A stretch of 64,000 bases of DNA from Sphingobacteriia bacterium (GTDB lineage Bacteria; Bacteroidota; Bacteroidia; Bacteroidales; UBA7960). The position numbers and the translations under genes were made by a program. The stretch lies in contig JAABRR010000005.1 of the NCBI GenBank assembly GCA_011390785.1, forward strand, positions 93,209-157,208. Reading direction: 5' to 3'. The notes below the pieces were generated by a model. That model was not told where the DNA came from. It did no database searches and was given only the letters and a program-made list of their open reading frames with translations. This document shows positions 30,732 through 55,604 of this stretch, piece after piece (the stretch's first letter is position 1; the number at the start of each line of letters is the position of its first letter).

Positions 30732-32702
30732 ATGGATAATGCTCCTACCCATTATGAGCAACGGGATATTGTAAAGGCTTCCTTTAAAAGAAGTCTTTAC
30801 TATGGTGTTGAAAGAGAACGGGTTCAACCCATTAAAGTAATTTCAGGCATTGAGTTGGACAGACGCCTTGACAAAAACAAGAGGCTTTTGAAAGCAGCTC
30901 AACCGTTTGTTAATTTATTAAACGAATTCGTTGCTGAAAGTGGGTTTATTGTTCTGTTAACAGATAATACCGGATGTATTGTGGCGCTGGCGGGTGATCC
31001 TGCCATATTAGGCAAATCAACTACCTTTGGTCTTGATTCCGGTGTTTTTATGAGTGAACAGAGTATAGGCACAAATGCCATCAGCGTTGCCTTGCACGAG
31101 AATGCTCCAATTCAAATTACCGGGAAAGAGCACTTTGTAAGATTATTTCACGACTGGAGCTGTTCTGCTGCCCCTATTCATGATGAAAAAGGAAATACGA
31201 TTGGATGTATTAATTTAAGTGGCAGTAGTTTAAGGGTCTATCCTCACCTGCTCGCGCTGGTTATTTCAGCTGCAAAAGCTATAGAATACCAGGTTGTCAG
31301 TTCCTTTTCCGAAATGCGCCAAAAGGAAGCATACCGTTTCGTTTCCCAAATACTTAATACCCTTGAATTTGGGGTTTTGGCAACTGATACCGACGGCAAA
31401 ATCAAAAGGGCAAACAATCTCTCATCTAAATTGCTTAAAGTGCCCGTTGATCAAATCGAAAACCGACAATTGGATGATTTTATACCTTCATGGCCTGACT
31501 ATTTAAGGCAGGTTAAAAAGCATGAGATCATAATTGATGAAGAGGTTCAGCTTATTCGCAATGGCAATCCTGATACAGCTAATCTCAGCATTTATCCTTT
31601 AACAGATGGCGATGGTACCATAAGCGGTACTGTAGTTACTTTAAGGGATATGAAACGGGTATATAAAATTGTAAACAAATATACGGGTATGCAGGCCCGC
31701 TATAATTTTGATGATTTGATTGGCGAAAGCGATGAGATGAAAAGGATTATTGACTATTGTAGAAATATTTCCGATAGTCCCAGTACAGTGCTGATTCAGG
31801 GCGAAAGTGGAACAGGAAAAGAAGTATTGGCACAATCCATTCATAATTATAGTTTTCGTCGCGACGGAGGTTTTGTGGCTCTTAATTGTGGTGCTATTCC
31901 TGAATCATTGATCGAAAGCGAATTGTTTGGCTATACCGAAGGTGCATTTACCAGCGCCAGAAAGGGCGGAAAACCCGGTAAATTTGAGCTTGCCAACGGA
32001 GGTACTCTTTTCCTGGATGAAATTGGTGAAATGCCACTTGATATGCAGGTAAAACTATTACGAGCCCTTCAGGAAAGAAATATTACCCGGGTGGGTGGCG
32101 ATAAGGCAATCGATGTTGATGTGAGAATCATTGCAGCTACCAACAGAAATTTACTTGAGTTGGTTAACGAAGGTAAATTTCGTCTCGATTTATATTACAG
32201 GCTTAGCGTAATTCCTGTATACATTCCTCCTTTGCGCAATAGAAGGGAAGATATTCCTATGCTGATCAATTTCTTTTTAAATTTGAAATCGGTGAAATTG
32301 AGAAAACAACTTCCCGATATGGATAACAAGTTGTTTAAAAAGCTGGTTTTTTATGATTGGGCCGGTAATGTGCGCGAACTGGAAAACTTCATTGAGAAGT
32401 ACGTAAATTTGAATGGTAACCTGGATTGGGCAGATGAAATAATGAGCCCGAAGGTTCAACCATCAAAAGTAAGTCCTATAGCAGAAACTCAGGATTTACT
32501 TGCTGAACAGAGCCAGAAGAACGAGAATTCTTTGATAGAAAATGGAGAGATTCTTTCACTCGAAGAGCTTGAAAAACGAGCCATTGAAAATGCAATCAGT
32601 CACTATAACCGAAATATGACCAGAGTGGCTGCTTCTCTGGGAATTAGCAGAAATGCTCTTTATCAAAAAGTAAAAAAATACCAGAGTAAGGGTTGGAATT
32701 AA
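30732..32702 (+). CDS. Sigma-54-dependent transcriptional activator (AcoR-like)
   Basis: A 656-residue enhancer-binding protein. The N-terminal part carries a GAF-type sensor (about 80-200, with EQSIGTNAI as in AcoR) and a PAS-like domain (about 210-310). The AAA+ domain (about 330-560) has Walker A GESGTGKE and Walker [12 protein letters not shown]. The sigma-54 contact loop reads GAFTSA (404-409) instead of the usual GAFTGA. A Fis-type helix-turn-helix closes the protein ([19 protein letters not shown]). It follows ettA by six bases. No target operon or -24/-12 promoter was recognised nearby, so its regulon is unknown. It is convergent with yciH, the stops sharing TTAA. Confidence 0.88.
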
Positions 32703-49878: not shown

Positions 49879-50526
49879 CTAAAACCGACTTAAGATTATT
49901 TGATAGTCTTTTTCAATATTAAACTCAGAAAGTGTATTCTGAAGTATTATTCCTTTCTTTTCATCCAAAGGGGTTTGGGTAAAATTCCATATAATACCTA
50001 CGCCGGCATTAATGGCTGCCTGGCTTGCCTGATAAGCATTTTCTGGTGTTGTGGCAATCATAGCCATTTTTATATGCATTTGTTTTACAAACTGGAGGAG
50101 TTTTTCCATACTCTGAACTTTAATTCCCCCGATAACAGTTCCGATTTTATCAGGATCAATTTCAAAGGCGGCTACAATCCTGAGTCCACTTCCGGCTATA
50201 CTTTCATTTTTTAAAAGGGAAGTCCCAAGTTTACCTAATCCAATAAGAATGGTTTCTTTAATATTTCTCTCCCCAAGAAAAATATCGATGCAGTTAATAA
50301 TATTATCAATATCAATTGCCATATCTGGCTTCATATTCCATTTAAAACAATAGGAGAAGTCTTTATATATGGTTTGTTGATCAATATCGAGAATTTCGGA
50401 AATGATAGAAATATTAAGAATTTTATTTTGTTTATATTTCCAAAGTTTTACTAACGGTTGGTAAAGCCGAAATCGACTTAAGGTTTCTTCTGGGGGTAAT
50501 TCGTTTTTTTTATACTTTTTCTGCAT
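49879..50526 (-). CDS. rex: Redox-sensing transcriptional repressor Rex
   Basis: A 215-residue regulator that in this family senses the NADH/NAD+ ratio and represses fermentative or respiratory genes. The N-terminal winged helix begins ETLSRFRLYQPLVKLW and has a recognition region IDQQTIYKDFSYCFKW. The Rossmann turn is GLGKLGTSLL. The C-terminal IIWNFTQTPL corresponds to the family's INFxPxxL segment. The DNA-binding half departs from the usual QxRKDLSxFG, reading QTIYKDFSYCF, so the operator may differ from the textbook TTGTGAA form. It lies about 1.2 kb from hydE. No promoter was identified. Confidence 0.82.
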   Translation of the reverse strand: MQKKYKKNELPPEETLSRFRLYQPLVKLWKYKQNKILNISIISEILDIDQQTIYKDFSYCFKWNMKPDMAIDIDNIINCIDIFLGERNIKETILIGLGKLGTSLLKNESIAGSGLRIVAAFEIDPDKIGTVIGGIKVQSMEKLLQFVKQMHIKMAMIATTPENAYQASQAAINAGVGIIWNFTQTPLDEKKGIILQNTLSEFNIEKDYQIILSRF

Positions 50527-50596
50527 ACTTTCTTGTTTGGTAAATAATCCAGGTCATACTTATTTAGCTCATTTTTTTAAAAAAGTGAGTAAAAAA

Positions 50597-50633
50597 CCGG
50601 TAGTCATGATTTTTCACGAATCAAGACTACCGG
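50597..50633 (-). terminator. Strong hairpin with T-run (terminator-like), minus strand
   Basis: CCGGTAGTC and GACTACCGG pair perfectly (9 bp), with an inner TGAT/ATCA stem. On the minus strand the stem is followed by TTTTTTAC. No annotated gene lies immediately upstream on that strand, so it implies a short transcript from 50.64-50.9 kb. Confidence 0.6.
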
Positions 50634-50766
50634 AAACCAAAACCAAAAACACACATGAAGAGATTGAGGTATTTGAAGAATATTGTTTAAAAACTATTGT
50701 CGGATGGAGGAATTTAAATTTCTTCAAAAACTCATCAGCTTCCAGAAAAAGAACAAAATCCGACAT
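50614..50766 (-). CDS. Possible 50-residue small protein (doubtful)
   Basis: ATG 50766 opens a 50-codon frame (MSDFVLFLEADEFLKKFKFL and onward) that stops inside the hairpin at 50597-50633. Acidic then basic residues and a hydrophobic C-terminal run (CVFLVLV) are visible. I recognise no family. The region may instead be non-coding; an 8-bp dyad, TGTCGGAT/ATCCGACA (50698-50705 and 50758-50765), spans most of it. Confidence 0.25.
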   Translation of the reverse strand: MSDFVLFLEADEFLKKFKFLHPTIVFKQYSSNTSISSCVFLVLVSGSLDS

Positions 50767-50887
50767 TTTTTATTAACAATATATGTGCCATAGTTTATAA
50801 ATATCATTAAATAAGCAATATGAAAATTATTGCTAATTTTTATATTTAAAAAAGACGGCTGATGTGTGCTAATTTATTACATATTTC

Positions 50888-50922
50888 TGTCATTAATAAT
50901 TACATTGTAATAAATAATGACA
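50888..50922. promoter_or_regulatory. 35-bp near-perfect palindrome (operator candidate)
   Basis: Arms of 17 bases, 50888-50904 and 50906-50922, are inverted copies with two mismatches around a central T. Each arm is itself partly palindromic (TGT...ACA ends). It sits in the 50527-51232 gap and could bind Rex or another dimeric repressor. Confidence 0.5.
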
Positions 50923-50968
50923 ATAATTTCTACTATAGTTGTAATTCAATTTTATCTTTTTTTCATTT

Positions 50969-51017
50969 TTCAATTTTACGATGCTTTAGATAAATGCAGC
51001 ATCGTGCAAAAATTGAA
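50969..51017 (+). terminator. Long stem-loop with T-run in the 50527-51232 gap
   Basis: TTCAATTTT plus ACGATGCT pair with AGCATCGT plus AAAATTGAA (17 bp in two segments separated by a short bulge, 12-base loop). CTTCTTTTTT follows at 51021-51030. It could end a plus-strand transcript or be a structured leader element of the 51233 gene. The rest of the gap (51031-51232) is AT-rich and I see nothing in it. Confidence 0.45.
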
Positions 51018-51232
51018 CAGCTTCTTTTTTAGACTTCTATTGATAATAAATTAATTAACCGGCAAAAAAATCGGGAAAACATAAAAAACTTAGCTCTTTT
51101 GTATAACCAAATCGGCAACATGTCGTATAAACATTAAATTTTAAAAAACTTTTTTGATTAAAAATTAATTAAAAAAAATAATATTTCTTTCCCCAAGAAA
51201 GGATTGACTCACCAAAACTAATTCTATTGATC

Positions 51233-51670
51233 ATGAAAAACTGGGATGTTTTTATTATTGTATCTACATTTATAATTGCTTTGGCATTATTTTCCAGCGG
51301 AAGAATAACCTTTGACAATATGTTAAATAATTTGCAACTTTCCGAAACCATAATAGTAATGTTTAAAACTATCACCATTGCTTTACTGGGGAGTTTTGCC
51401 CTTGCGCTTATGATAATATTCATTTTGATAGATATTATCGTAACCTTTATCTCGGGTGTTGAATTTCCTATTATACAGTTTTTTTACAATACTGTCTATA
51501 TGGGTTTTTTCCATAATTGGTATTGGGAATTACACAGCGGGAGCCATATTTTTATGGCTTGCATAATTCTTTTTGGGGTAGGGTTGATTAATACTTACCT
51601 GGGGCCAATTTATCGTAGAAAAACTTTTGTGTATTACAAAAGCAAGCAGAATAATTATATAAAGCATTGA
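51233..51670 (+). CDS. Uncharacterised small membrane protein
   Basis: A 145-residue protein with four likely membrane helices (about 5-22, 42-68, 68-90 and 105-122). A conserved-looking loop, YMGFFHNWYWELHSGSH, lies between the third and fourth, and a basic C-terminus follows (GPIYRRKTFVYYKSKQNN). I do not recognise the family. The His/Trp-rich loop could bind metal or haem (inference). Start is ATG 51233; an upstream in-frame TTG at 51227 adds only two residues. It is preceded by a 0.7 kb structured region and is convergent with hydE. Confidence 0.6.
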   Translation: MKNWDVFIIVSTFIIALALFSSGRITFDNMLNNLQLSETIIVMFKTITIALLGSFALALMIIFILIDIIVTFISGVEFPIIQFFYNTVYMGFFHNWYWELHSGSHIFMACIILFGVGLINTYLGPIYRRKTFVYYKSKQNNYIKH

Positions 51671-51756: not shown

Positions 51757-52854
51757 CTATTTAATTTCGTCTTTTTTCCGCTTTTTAAAATGGGTGGAGT
51801 CGCCCCATTCTCCATAACCTATATCTCCACCGGCCATGTGAATACGGGCTTCCAGACATTGTTTGCAATCATTGGCATCTTCATCCAAACAGGGCTTGTC
51901 TTCATATAGAAGATAATCTTCACGATATTTTGATGGGGTAAGGTTAGGCATAATGATATTGGCACCTACCTTAATTGCCTTTTCTCTGCCTAACGGATCA
52001 ATGGCTTGCATGGCCGTAGTAGCAGCAATATTTATATCCTTCATCATAATTCTAAGTATAGCAACCATTTTCAGGCTAAGATAAAACCTCTCTGATTTTG
52101 ATAAAAGCTCATCCTTATATTGGTATAACGGGGTATTTTCGTGTTCTATAAATGGCCCCATTCCTACCATGTCAATATCAAAATTGCGAAAGAAAATAAG
52201 GTCATCAGCCAAATCATGAACAGTTTGAAACGGCAAACCGATCATAACGCCGGTTCCAACCTGGTAACCTACTTTTCTTAAAAGGTGTAAACTCTCTAGT
52301 CGTGCGAAATAATCATGTTTCTTATCGTTTGGATGATACTTCAGATACAATTCGGGGTTTGATACTTCAATTCTAAGAAGATAACGATGAGCGCCACTAT
52401 CAAACCAACTTTTGTAGGTTTCTTCGGTTTGTTCTCCCATTGATAGTGTTATGCCCAGATCTCCATTACTCAACTTCTTTATTCTTGAAACGAGAGATGC
52501 AATCCGTTTTACAAAACTTTTATCGGAGCGCTCTCCCGATTGAATTACCAAACTTCCGTATTTATTCTCGTAGGCATAGCGTGCAGCTTCCAGGATTTCA
52601 TCCTCGGTAATTTCGTACCTGTTTGTTTGCTTATTTCCAGCTCTGATACCGCAATAGTAGCAGTTTTTTGCGCATAAATTTGAAAACTCAATTAAACCAC
52701 GATAAAAAACCCTTTTTCCAACATATTTTTCTTTTATCATGGCAGATCGTTCAAAAAGCAGGTTTCTATCTTGTTCATTAGCAGATAGAAGTGTAACAAT
52801 ATCTTGTTTTTCGAAGTGATCCTGATCGAGTATTTCGGAGATGGTTTTTGTCAT
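51757..52854 (-). CDS. hydE: [FeFe]-hydrogenase H-cluster radical SAM maturase HydE
   Basis: A 365-residue radical SAM enzyme that acts on the organometallic product of HydG during H-cluster assembly. The SAM-cluster motif is CAKNCYYC (Cys61, Cys65, Cys68). The C-terminal Cx7Cx2C motif for a second FeS cluster is also present (Cys322, Cys330, Cys333), as in Thermotoga HydE. The TIM-barrel segments GLPFQTVHDLADDL and FIEHENTPL fit the family. It is the last gene of aspartase-hydF-hydE, 30 bases after hydF. No hydrogenase large subunit or hydG is in the window. Confidence 0.93.
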   Translation of the reverse strand: MTKTISEILDQDHFEKQDIVTLLSANEQDRNLLFERSAMIKEKYVGKRVFYRGLIEFSNLCAKNCYYCGIRAGNKQTNRYEITEDEILEAARYAYENKYGSLVIQSGERSDKSFVKRIASLVSRIKKLSNGDLGITLSMGEQTEETYKSWFDSGAHRYLLRIEVSNPELYLKYHPNDKKHDYFARLESLHLLRKVGYQVGTGVMIGLPFQTVHDLADDLIFFRNFDIDMVGMGPFIEHENTPLYQYKDELLSKSERFYLSLKMVAILRIMMKDINIAATTAMQAIDPLGREKAIKVGANIIMPNLTPSKYREDYLLYEDKPCLDEDANDCKQCLEARIHMAGGDIGYGEWGDSTHFKKRKKDEIK

Positions 52855-52884
52855 GGAAGCTGTATAATTGTGTTGCCGGTGAAA

Positions 52885-54111
52885 TTACAAATAATCTGTG
52901 GTATGGCTATCAATTTTCATAAAAGGGGCTATCGACCGGGTAAAAGTTCCGTGCATCCAGGCAATGGCCATTCCATAGTTGGTTACAGGTATATCTGCAT
53001 CTATAGCAGGTTTAAGACGTCCTTTGATCTGTTTTGGAGTAATTACACACCCACCGCATTGTACCACCAGTGCATAGTCGTTCATGGGGCGGGGCAGTTC
53101 GTTAAGTCCTGAAACTACATCATAGTGAAGTTTTTTGCCGGTAAAGCTATTCATCCAACGTGGAATCTTTACTCTTCCTATGTCGTCGCAGGCAACATGA
53201 TGGGTACAGCTTTCCAGTAGAAGAACCCTATCGTTATCTTTCAAATCAGATATTCTGGGAGTTCCTTTTACATAATTTTCAAAGTCGCCTTTTTGCCTGG
53301 CCAACATTATACTGAAACTGGTAAGGGGTATTTCTTTGGGAATAGATGCGTCTGCTTTCAGAAAAACCTGGCTGTCGGTTACAACAAGTGCTGGTTTGGG
53401 GTTGAGAACTTTTATAAGAGAATCTACTTCCCGTTCTTTCGCCACTACACAGATGCAGTCATTGTCGAGTATATCTCTGATAGCCTGCACCTGGGGGAGA
53501 ATCAGCCTGCCTTCCGGAGCTTCAATATCAATGGGTGTAATCAGCAGCACAAGGTCTCCGTAAGACAGCAAATCGCCCAACAGACTGCTCTTTTTCCAAG
53601 CTGATGGTGGAATGGTTTTTCGTAAAGATGCAATAATTTCTTCCCGGTTAAACGGATCTATGGTTGAAAATTCCATAACCGGAATCTCTGGAAAATCTCT
53701 TGATAATACTTGTTTTAATTCTTTGTTAATTGCAGCAAGGTCTGATTTGTTATGAATAATTACTGTGGGAATATTTTGTTGGGTAAAATCTGTAAGCAAC
53801 TGTTTTTCAAATTCACCAAAAATATTTTGGGCTATGATCAATATGGCCAGATCAACGGTTTTAATAATTGATCTGGTTTTTGCTATTCTTTTTGCACCCA
53901 ATTCGCCCACATCATCGATTCCAGCTGTATCCACAAGTATTACAGGACCAATACCCGAAATCTCCATCGATTTCTTTACAGGGTCGGTGGTAGTTCCGGC
54001 AAAATCGGATACTATGGCTATTTCCTGGCCTGCAATGGCATTGATAAACGAACTTTTCCCATTATTACGTCGTCCAAAAATACCTATGTGGGGTTTGCTT
54101 TCCTTTCCCAT
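52885..54111 (-). CDS. hydF: [FeFe]-hydrogenase maturation GTPase HydF
   Basis: A 408-residue scaffold that assembles the diiron precursor and delivers it to apo-hydrogenase. The GTPase domain (1-170) has P-loop GRRNNGKSS (13-21), DTAG (61-64) and NKSD (121-124). A dimerisation domain follows. The C-terminal cluster domain has CTH (Cys302, His304) and QCGGC (Cys352, Cys355). The family motif is CxH...HCxxC, so the second histidine is Gln351 here; the codon at 53061-53059 reads CAA. The cysteines themselves are intact. It lies between the aspartase gene and hydE. Confidence 0.93.
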   Translation of the reverse strand: MGKESKPHIGIFGRRNNGKSSFINAIAGQEIAIVSDFAGTTTDPVKKSMEISGIGPVILVDTAGIDDVGELGAKRIAKTRSIIKTVDLAILIIAQNIFGEFEKQLLTDFTQQNIPTVIIHNKSDLAAINKELKQVLSRDFPEIPVMEFSTIDPFNREEIIASLRKTIPPSAWKKSSLLGDLLSYGDLVLLITPIDIEAPEGRLILPQVQAIRDILDNDCICVVAKEREVDSLIKVLNPKPALVVTDSQVFLKADASIPKEIPLTSFSIMLARQKGDFENYVKGTPRISDLKDNDRVLLLESCTHHVACDDIGRVKIPRWMNSFTGKKLHYDVVSGLNELPRPMNDYALVVQCGGCVITPKQIKGRLKPAIDADIPVTNYGMAIAWMHGTFTRSIAPFMKIDSHTTDYL

Positions 54112-54149
54112 ACAAATTACTTTATGTTTTTTACTCTTAATATCTTAAT

Positions 54150-55604
54150 TCAGGAAGAACTATTTGAATCAATATCATTTAGCGAATAACCCAGTTTTAG
54201 CAGGTTCTCAGGAAGCAAAAGTTTCTCAAGGAGTTTAAGATCAATATAACCCATTCTTTCATTGGCCTGATAAATATTAATGTTATCCTTTTTCATTAAT
54301 AATGCCAGTTCCGTTGCCTTTTTATACCCGATTACCGGAAGTAGAATTGTTGTAATTGCCGGGCTGTGGAATAATTTTTCATGGGCTGTTTCTGACTTCA
54401 CTTCAAGTTCGTTTACAAGATTGGCCAGCATCGACTGATCTGCTTTGATAAGCAGATGAATACTTTCCAGCATAGCATTTCCTATAACTGGCAGATATGC
54501 GTTCAAATCAAGTGAGCCTTGCCCACAAAGGTTACTTATGAGCATATCGTTGGCATAAACTTTATGGGCACAACTGATAATAAATTCACTGATCACTGGA
54601 TTTACTTTTCCCGGCATAATGCTACTCCCAGTTTGCTTTTGGGGTAAATAAATTTCAGGTGTACCTGTTATGTCGGAAGCAAGCAATCGCAGATCAGCCG
54701 CAATTTTTTCGAGGTTAACGGCATGCGCTTTTAAGATGGCACTAACTTCCACTATAGTGTCAAGGTTTTGTGTGGAATCAGTATGATTTTCGCTTCGGGT
54801 AACAGGCAAACCGGTAATTTTTCTGAGATTTTCTGTCACTTCCATAATAAAGTAACGCGGAATTGACATACCCGTTCCGGTGGCACCGCCTCCGAGATTG
54901 GTTACTTTAATTCGTTCAAAACATTTGGATACGCGCCACCAGTCTCTCGATAAAGCATCGGCCCAGGCACCAAAAAGCAATCCGAAAGATGATGGCACTG
55001 CCTGCTGCATTTGAGTATAAGCTATTCGCAACTGTTTGCGCGAAAGTTGTTCATGTTTTTCAAAAGATGAACGAAGTTCATTAATGCTGGTTTCCAGTAT
55101 ATTGAGCTGGTTCATCATAGCCACCTTTAAGGCAGTTGGAATAACATCGTTGGTAGATTGAAAAATATTGGCGTGCAGAAAAGGATCAATTTTATCGTAA
55201 GACCCAGAATCAAGACCCAATTTTTGTAATCCTGCATTGCAAATAATCTCGTTAATATTCATGTTAATGGCTGTACCTGCTCCACCTTGTATGGCTGGTA
55301 CCACAAAGTGATTAAAGTATTCGCCCTGAGAAATTTTGATCGCAATTTCTTCCAGTAACTCCAAAATAGAAATATCCTTGCATCCCGGGGGTAATTCTTT
55401 TTCAGGGTATTTAAGCTCCGCAGCCCGCGAAAAGGAAATGGCTGTAACATAACAGGCTTGCTTTACAATGCCAATAGCTTTGTACCATTCCAGATTAAAA
55501 GGGCTGTTATTATTGAAGTTTTGCATGGCCCGCCAGGAATGAATCCCATACAACGCATCATGCGGTAGTTCTGCTTCGCCAATAAAGTCTCGTTCTTTTC
55601 GCAT
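54150..55604 (-). CDS. aspA: Aspartate ammonia-lyase (aspartase/fumarase superfamily), first gene of the hyd operon
   Basis: A 484-residue lyase that would convert aspartate to fumarate and ammonia. The catalytic serine loop is GSSIMPGKVNP. Substrate segments are GGAGTAINMNINEI (usually GTSTNMN), QSTNDVIPTA and YTQMQQAVP. The Gln after Thr in the last segment is aspartase-like rather than fumarase-like. Some substitutions (GTAI; SSFGLLFGAW) leave the exact substrate open. It begins the minus-strand operon, 38 bases before hydF. From general knowledge, aspartase-like genes do occur beside hyd maturation genes in other anaerobes. Supply of ammonia for the bridging amine is an inference discussed in the findings. 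Confidence 0.8.
   Translation of the reverse strand: MRKERDFIGEAELPHDALYGIHSWRAMQNFNNNSPFNLEWYKAIGIVKQACYVTAISFSRAAELKYPEKELPPGCKDISILELLEEIAIKISQGEYFNHFVVPAIQGGAGTAINMNINEIICNAGLQKLGLDSGSYDKIDPFLHANIFQSTNDVIPTALKVAMMNQLNILETSINELRSSFEKHEQLSRKQLRIAYTQMQQAVPSSFGLLFGAWADALSRDWWRVSKCFERIKVTNLGGGATGTGMSIPRYFIMEVTENLRKITGLPVTRSENHTDSTQNLDTIVEVSAILKAHAVNLEKIAADLRLLASDITGTPEIYLPQKQTGSSIMPGKVNPVISEFIISCAHKVYANDMLISNLCGQGSLDLNAYLPVIGNAMLESIHLLIKADQSMLANLVNELEVKSETAHEKLFHSPAITTILLPVIGYKKATELALLMKKDNINIYQANERMGYIDLKLLEKLLLPENLLKLGYSLNDIDSNSSS

Follow-up and report, generated by a model that had tools for sequence, protein, structure and literature searches.

A predicted small RNA gene upstream of rex, probably under sigma-54 control, in one genus of Bacteroidales

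What is encoded in the 700-nt gap between rex and a divergently oriented membrane protein gene in a bacterium of the order Bacteroidales? The gap lies in the window analysed here, a 64,000-nt stretch of the Sphingobacteriia bacterium assembly GCA_011390785.1. An earlier note, made from the sequence alone, had read its dyads and terminator-like hairpins as signs of one or two short transcripts, perhaps regulatory RNAs, and on re-checking the sequence all features it named were found where it had placed them. To our knowledge, post-transcriptional control in Bacteroidota is little understood: many sRNAs have been catalogued, few of them with a known input. Our comparisons indicate that the gap is very probably a previously undescribed gene for a redox-linked regulatory small RNA of about 175 bases, since all 12 sequenced genomes of the genus share the same switch, consisting of three predicted activator-binding sites, a sigma-54-type promoter and a matching activator gene.

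Results

On each strand, all 20 dinucleotide shuffles of the gap fold less well than the gap itself (z -5.6 and -6.9). Since it is AT-rich and palindrome-rich, good folding means little on its own, and we therefore compared relatives in a DNA search covering 59 genomes (the window genome and 58 relatives). Each of the 11 other genomes of the genus has about 100 nt (window 50591-50694) in common with the gap, at 74-87% identity (mostly 82-87%), and nothing comparable was found outside the genus among the 59 genomes. Rex protein identity in the same 11 relatives is 53-60%, far below that of the noncoding stretch. Read along the minus strand, the order is consistent across the alignment: three dyads, a TGGCAC-N5-TTG box, the RNA-like region, a terminator and rex. 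This full arrangement is present in 12/12 genomes of the genus and absent from 35 other genomes of the family; as far as searched, the RNA is restricted to one genus. The relatives carrying the same loci are recorded as metagenome-assembled Bacteroidales, and we take the isolate codes of these records to stand for soda-lake sediments and mats. The features, in window coordinates, are as follows.

49879-50526, minus strand: rex, NAD(H)-responsive repressor (NCBIfam NF003994, 138.9 bits, above the cut-off)
50764-50591, minus strand: predicted small RNA, about 174 nt, its start placed from promoter spacing and helix P1
50591-50633, minus strand: intrinsic terminator CCGGTAGTC...GACTACCGG plus TTTTTT; stem invariant in 12/12 genomes, followed by T6-T7
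50632-50662, minus strand: 31-nt near-invariant stretch CTCTTCATGTGTGTTTTTGGTTTTGGTTTCC, the same in 12/12 except for one base in one genome
50728-50722 and 50678-50672, minus strand: TTTGAAG and CTTCAAA, a complementary near-invariant pair in the alignment
50681-50694, minus strand: small hairpin P3, GTTGTT/AACAAC in relatives and weak in the window genome; 97% of cells paired
50764-50758 with 50705-50699, minus strand: helix P1, GTCGGAT/ATCCGAC, forming in 12/12 genomes with 7-11 pairs
50790-50775, minus strand: sigma-54-type -24/-12 promoter TGGCACATATATTGTT (TGGCAC-N5-TTG, GG-N10-G spacing)
50865-50881, minus strand: activator dyad 3, TGTAATAAATTAGCACA, degenerate in the window genome; -90 to -93 in 12/12
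50888-50904, minus strand: activator dyad 2, exactly 18 bp from dyad 1
50906-50922, minus strand: distal activator dyad 1, TGTCATTATTTATTACA on the minus strand; -131 to -135 from TGGC in 12/12
51233-51670, plus strand: membrane protein of about 145 aa, ATG at 51233 preferred over TTG at 51227
30732-32702, plus strand: predicted cognate enhancer-binding protein, 656 aa, S clade (by Pfam and clade membership)

A covariance model of the RNA matched 12/12 genomes of the genus (E 1e-22 to 1e-34) and gave only two weak matches elsewhere in the family, in other gene contexts. Within the RNA, helix P1 joins the predicted 5' end to RNA position ~60-66. Its strands correspond to the dyad TGTCGGAT/ATCCGACA at 50698-50705/50758-50765, formerly read, together with the T6 that follows it on the plus strand, as a plus-strand terminator. 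The dyad is instead the 5' helix of the minus-strand RNA, and the supposed T-run is merely an A-run just upstream of the predicted start. A model-free, per-sequence helix search in the 12 genomes found P1 in all of them, in differing sequences such as GAAATCGGA/TCCGGTTTC, ACAACCGGA/TCCGGTTGT, CAGTCGG/CCGACTG, GTAACCGGA/TCCGGTTAC and GTCGGAT/ATCCGAC. The covariation analysis of homologous intergenic regions that the earlier note had proposed supports the helix as well: in the alignment, which was fitted to the structure, 8 of 9 pairs changed on both sides, for each of the five measures 0 of 500 shuffles reached the observed value, and the measures collapsed once the partner was slid by one base. 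That a structured RNA exists here is very likely.

Other parts of the RNA vary less. P3 and the terminator stem are nearly invariant and therefore provide no covariation support. The terminator hairpin (CCGGTAGTC/GACTACCGG, 50597-50633, with the minus-strand T6 at 50596-50591) had already been recognized as terminator-like, a reading that its conservation bears out. A simple terminator scan missed the hairpins because of loop length and thus neither supports nor refutes them. TTTGAAG lies inside the P1 loop and CTTCAAA downstream of P3; the pair does not vary, and a pseudoknot with P1 is possible. The 5' strand of P1 has a second possible partner in the invariant stretch, at its UUUUGGUUUC end, which makes it uncertain which fold is active. 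The 31-nt stretch itself is a putative target-pairing and/or chaperone-binding segment, of which viral contigs contained no copy. Searching Rfam 15 at gathering and relaxed thresholds, 6S RNA included, gave chance matches alone in the gap, none above cut-off, and the one match in the window was a tRNA. The RNA family is new in that it has no Rfam match; its predicted kind, the sigma-54-controlled sRNA, is already known.

Two coding readings of the region were discarded. The minus-strand 50-codon frame at 50614-50766, once named as the candidate small protein, is not conserved, and 10 of the 12 genomes have no ATG frame of more than 40 codons inside the RNA. On the plus strand the invariant stretch can be read as an MKRREYLK-like peptide, but two relatives have frameshifts that interrupt this frame.

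Just upstream of the RNA, TGGCA-N6-TTG with sigma-54 spacing is present in 12/12 genomes. The -12 element is TTGAA or TTGTT in all loci, not the canonical TTGC. rpoN was detected in 12/12 genomes, in two of them as fragments only. The same promoter form, TTGGCAC-N5-TTGAAA, stands upstream of dnaK in the window genome (TTGGCACAATCATTGAAA, L065 1501-1518), which suggests that dnaK may be under sigma-54 heat-shock control here as in Flavobacterium. For Flavobacterium psychrophilum, dnaK and the putative sRNA Rfp36 are placed behind sigma-54 promoters in PMC9723704.

The dyads share the 17-bp consensus TGTCAT-N5-ATGACA, with three copies spanning 50922-50865. They start at -132, -114 and -91 relative to TGGC in 12/12 genomes (spread at most 4 bp), distances within the ~80-200 bp expected of upstream activator sites. 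Dyad 3 scores 9-12 of 12 across the 12 genomes. Dyads 1 and 2 together form the 35-bp near-palindrome TGTCATTAATAATTACATTGTAATAAATAATGACA at 50888-50922; the palindrome noticed earlier is thus present, but as two of three predicted activator-binding dyads and not as an RNA hairpin. The tandem-dyad pattern was found in 12/12 genomes of the genus, in 0 of the 35 other genomes of the family and never in the reversed controls, and none of 600 shuffles of the regions yielded such a pair. Each genome of the genus has a single copy, apart from G006, which has one more site. Single dyads with one mismatch were at chance level genome-wide (10 versus 11 in the control), so that only the tandem arrangement is informative.

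A search with the activator beside the extra G006 site returned three clades. Each of the 12 genomes encodes a single activator of the S clade, and in six its gene lies beside the RNA gene, in the order activator, membrane gene, dyads, RNA, rex; in the window genome it is 18 kb away. By Pfam the window activator comprises PAS, AAA and Fis-type HTH domains, and a GAF domain was detected in a sister-clade relative. All S-clade proteins (the window activator and 11 orthologues) carry GAFTSA rather than GAFTGA in the loop. Sequence comparison establishes the RNA structure, the promoter and dyad geometry and the co-occurrence with one activator clade; control of the RNA by sigma-54 and the S-clade protein is, on these grounds, quite likely.

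A link to hydrogen metabolism comes from the H clade, which is present in four genomes and located at an [FeFe]-hydrogenase operon. The extra tandem site in G006 lies between the sister activator gene and this operon, which encodes two [FeFe]-hydrogenase-type proteins, two 2Fe-2S thioredoxin-like proteins and a SpoIIE-type phosphatase. Comparison also establishes that the same dyads recur there with a Rex operator: the four hydrogenase loci show, in sequence, the dyad, a TTGGCA-type box ~132 bp further along and then a Rex operator without mismatch (TTGTTAA-N4-TTAACAA, 14/14 at each). A single hydrogenase promoter thus seems to be served by both the activator and the Rex repressor. No Rex operator was found at the 12 RNA loci. 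At the hydrogenase loci, the operators are positioned just downstream of the sigma-54-type promoters (L108:6237-6254, L110:3104-3121, L111:3608-3625 and L112:3731-3748).

The membrane gene, divergent from the RNA gene, encodes a protein with no match in Pfam or NCBIfam. Its orthologues share NW[DN] and WYWD.HSG motifs and are 42-57% identical in relatives; the AlphaFold model is helical, and with a mean pLDDT of 62.5 it is too poor for a fold search. The gene adjoins the S-clade activator in nine loci and is a neighbour of the activator gene in most relatives; our guess from this neighbourhood is that the protein may be a partner of the activator. On its leader side lies a strong stem-loop (CAATTTT..ACGATGC/GCATCGT..AAAATTG, 50969-51017, with a T-run to 51023), found solely in the window genome's copy and perhaps a recent insertion. 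Conservation of the dyads therefore holds for three of the four, which are kept genus-wide in 12/12; the fourth, this stem-loop, is confined to the window copy, and its former reading as a plus-strand terminator is not supported. Beside the membrane gene, a minus-strand cluster at 51757-55604 (a hydE-like radical SAM gene, hydF and an aspartase/fumarase-type gene) brings [FeFe]-hydrogenase maturation close to rex and the small RNA gene. On the rex side, the start codon of rex in most relatives (L010-L019) directly follows a GATTTTTT-ACC-AAT-AAAAAATC hairpin, possibly a translational control element of rex.

We then looked for targets. The invariant stretch is complementary to ...AAAAACACACAUGAAGAG, and the genome holds no second complement of the 31 nt with up to 3 mismatches. 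SusC-type receptor starts in two genomes, and the starts of two other exported proteins, match a 14-base complement, ACACACATGAAGAG, which spans a start codon (one mismatch). These matches are weakened by the background, as SusC/exported-type starts are AC-rich in general; the predicted pairings come mostly from pattern-selected matches, and 259 background starts yielded one comparable exported-protein gene that was not pattern-selected (L085). Start-codon pairing of the stretch with SusC-type and exported-protein genes is thus a lead. Pairing of the RNA with the leaders of window genes gave no significant energies. Overall, no target stands out. A base-pairing role for the RNA appears reasonably likely.

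The 3' module of the RNA has look-alikes. At the 3' ends of unrelated genes, (CTCTTCATGTGT..)GTTTTGGTT..CCGG is followed by a terminator (L176 and L182 around 1500, L081 ~230, L082 ~1610), and in G006 and G007 such a stretch plus terminator ends another mRNA (L176, L182). L081 and L082, weak matches of the covariance model in a sister genus, were considered as RNA homologues and rejected: they have the GTTTTGGTTTCCGG-terminator end alone in common with the RNA and lie in another gene context.

Discussion

We consider it probable that the gap encodes a trans-acting sRNA which is controlled by sigma-54 and an enhancer-binding protein and belongs to a redox/hydrogen regulon with Rex. What we infer about its transcription, about activator binding and the signal, and about base pairing and targets is as follows. 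Sigma-54 RNA polymerase would transcribe the ~174-nt RNA from the minus strand, with the dedicated enhancer-binding protein (30732-32702) bound to the three dyads ~90-130 bp upstream. When its sensory N-terminal domains allow, the activator would contact sigma-54 through the GAFTSA loop and switch the RNA on. The RNA would then fold its 5' helix, expose the 31-nt invariant stretch and end at the intrinsic terminator, short of rex. Most likely it pairs with mRNAs, probably near start codons, and it would share a redox/hydrogen regulon with Rex.

Against sigma-54 control count the noncanonical -12 element, the GAFTSA loop, the distance of 18 kb to the activator gene and the degenerate dyad 3. 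The first two would suit a real sRNA served by another sigma factor, or by a classical activator or repressor at the dyads, with TGGCAC...TTG a coincidence. But the GG-N10-G spacing is exact in 12/12 genomes, a PF00158 activator is linked to the RNA gene, the dyads stand at enhancer-like distance, the same pair of dyad and promoter recurs at the sister activator's operon and the same promoter form at dnaK; we regard such a coincidence as very unlikely. Still less can be said for several independent transcripts (at least two), among them plus-strand RNAs that would terminate at the stem-loops at 50758-50771 and 50969-51017. Both structures exist in the window genome, but the former is helix P1 of the RNA on the minus strand and covaries in that role, and the latter is missing in relatives, which makes this reading extremely improbable. 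Of the one or two short RNAs that the earlier note had envisaged, one minus-strand RNA gene is thus supported, with covariation behind it, and a second transcript is not.

Since the RNA lies just upstream of rex, it could also be a cis-acting leader or attenuator: structured RNA and terminator would form the rex 5' UTR, and regulated read-through would set the level of Rex. The order of RNA and rex on the same strand is kept in 12/12 genomes, and a switch could arise if the 5' strand of P1 alternated between this helix and the invariant stretch. However, terminator and rex start are 64 to 337 nt apart, depending on the genome, the invariant terminator stem has no conserved anti-terminator partner, some relatives carry a TAAATTTG box (sigma-A -7 type) between terminator and rex, and attenuation leaves the 31-nt stretch unexplained. 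We judge a leader role unlikely. Rather unlikely, too, is an RNA that mainly sequesters or recruits a protein (an RNA chaperone or translation regulator) via its GUUUUUGGUUUUGGUUU stretch instead of base pairing. GGUUU repeats do adjoin the terminator, and similar GUUUUGGUU...CCGG-terminator 3' ends are found at other genes (L081, L082, L176, L182), but the CUCUUCAUGUGUG part upstream is just as invariant and lacks any obvious protein-binding repeat.

Under the sigma-54-controlled sRNA that we prefer, the sequence allows the promoter, the activator sites and the activator to be named, so that input and output are directly testable. The locus also supplies a predicted DNA site, TGTCAT-N5-ATGACA, for one sigma-54 activator clade linked to Rex and hydrogenase genes. 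More tentatively, and with considerable doubt, a module of membrane protein, 'loosened' GAFTSA activator and private sRNA might join redox sensing, Rex and [FeFe]-hydrogenase control to post-transcriptional control of exported and outer-membrane proteins via a start-codon seed, a seed shared with related 3'-end modules of mRNAs.

Among known systems, the enterobacterial and vibrio sRNAs GlmY/GlmZ and Qrr (the latter with LuxO) are similar in being intergenic sRNAs with a -24/-12 promoter, upstream activator sites, an intrinsic terminator and an activator gene near or linked (PMC7073468, PMC10162802). In contrast to these, the RNA described here belongs to a different phylum and has no Rfam match, and its predicted activator is of the one-component sensor type with GAFTSA, not a response regulator. 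Rfp36 of Flavobacterium psychrophilum is likewise a putative Bacteroidota sRNA behind a sigma-54-type (SM4) promoter; the text consulted of PMC9723704 reports no activator sites, structure or linked activator for it.

The S- and H-clade activators resemble DhaR/AcoR-type activators in domain order and length. NCBIfam PRK11388 (DhaR) is their best match, at 408 bits and thus below the cut-off of 551, so they are not DhaR equivalogs. NorR recognizes GT-N7-AC, as against TGTCAT-N5-ATGACA here. In the NorR-norVW system, too, a GAF-AAA-HTH activator works with three enhancer sites that precede a sigma-54 promoter, but NorR controls protein genes (PMC2941729). Serine at the second glycine of GAFTGA renders NorR active and partly signal-independent, with GAF control loosened (PMC2941729). 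The natural GAFTSA loop of the S clade offers a test of what this variant does outside mutant NorR.
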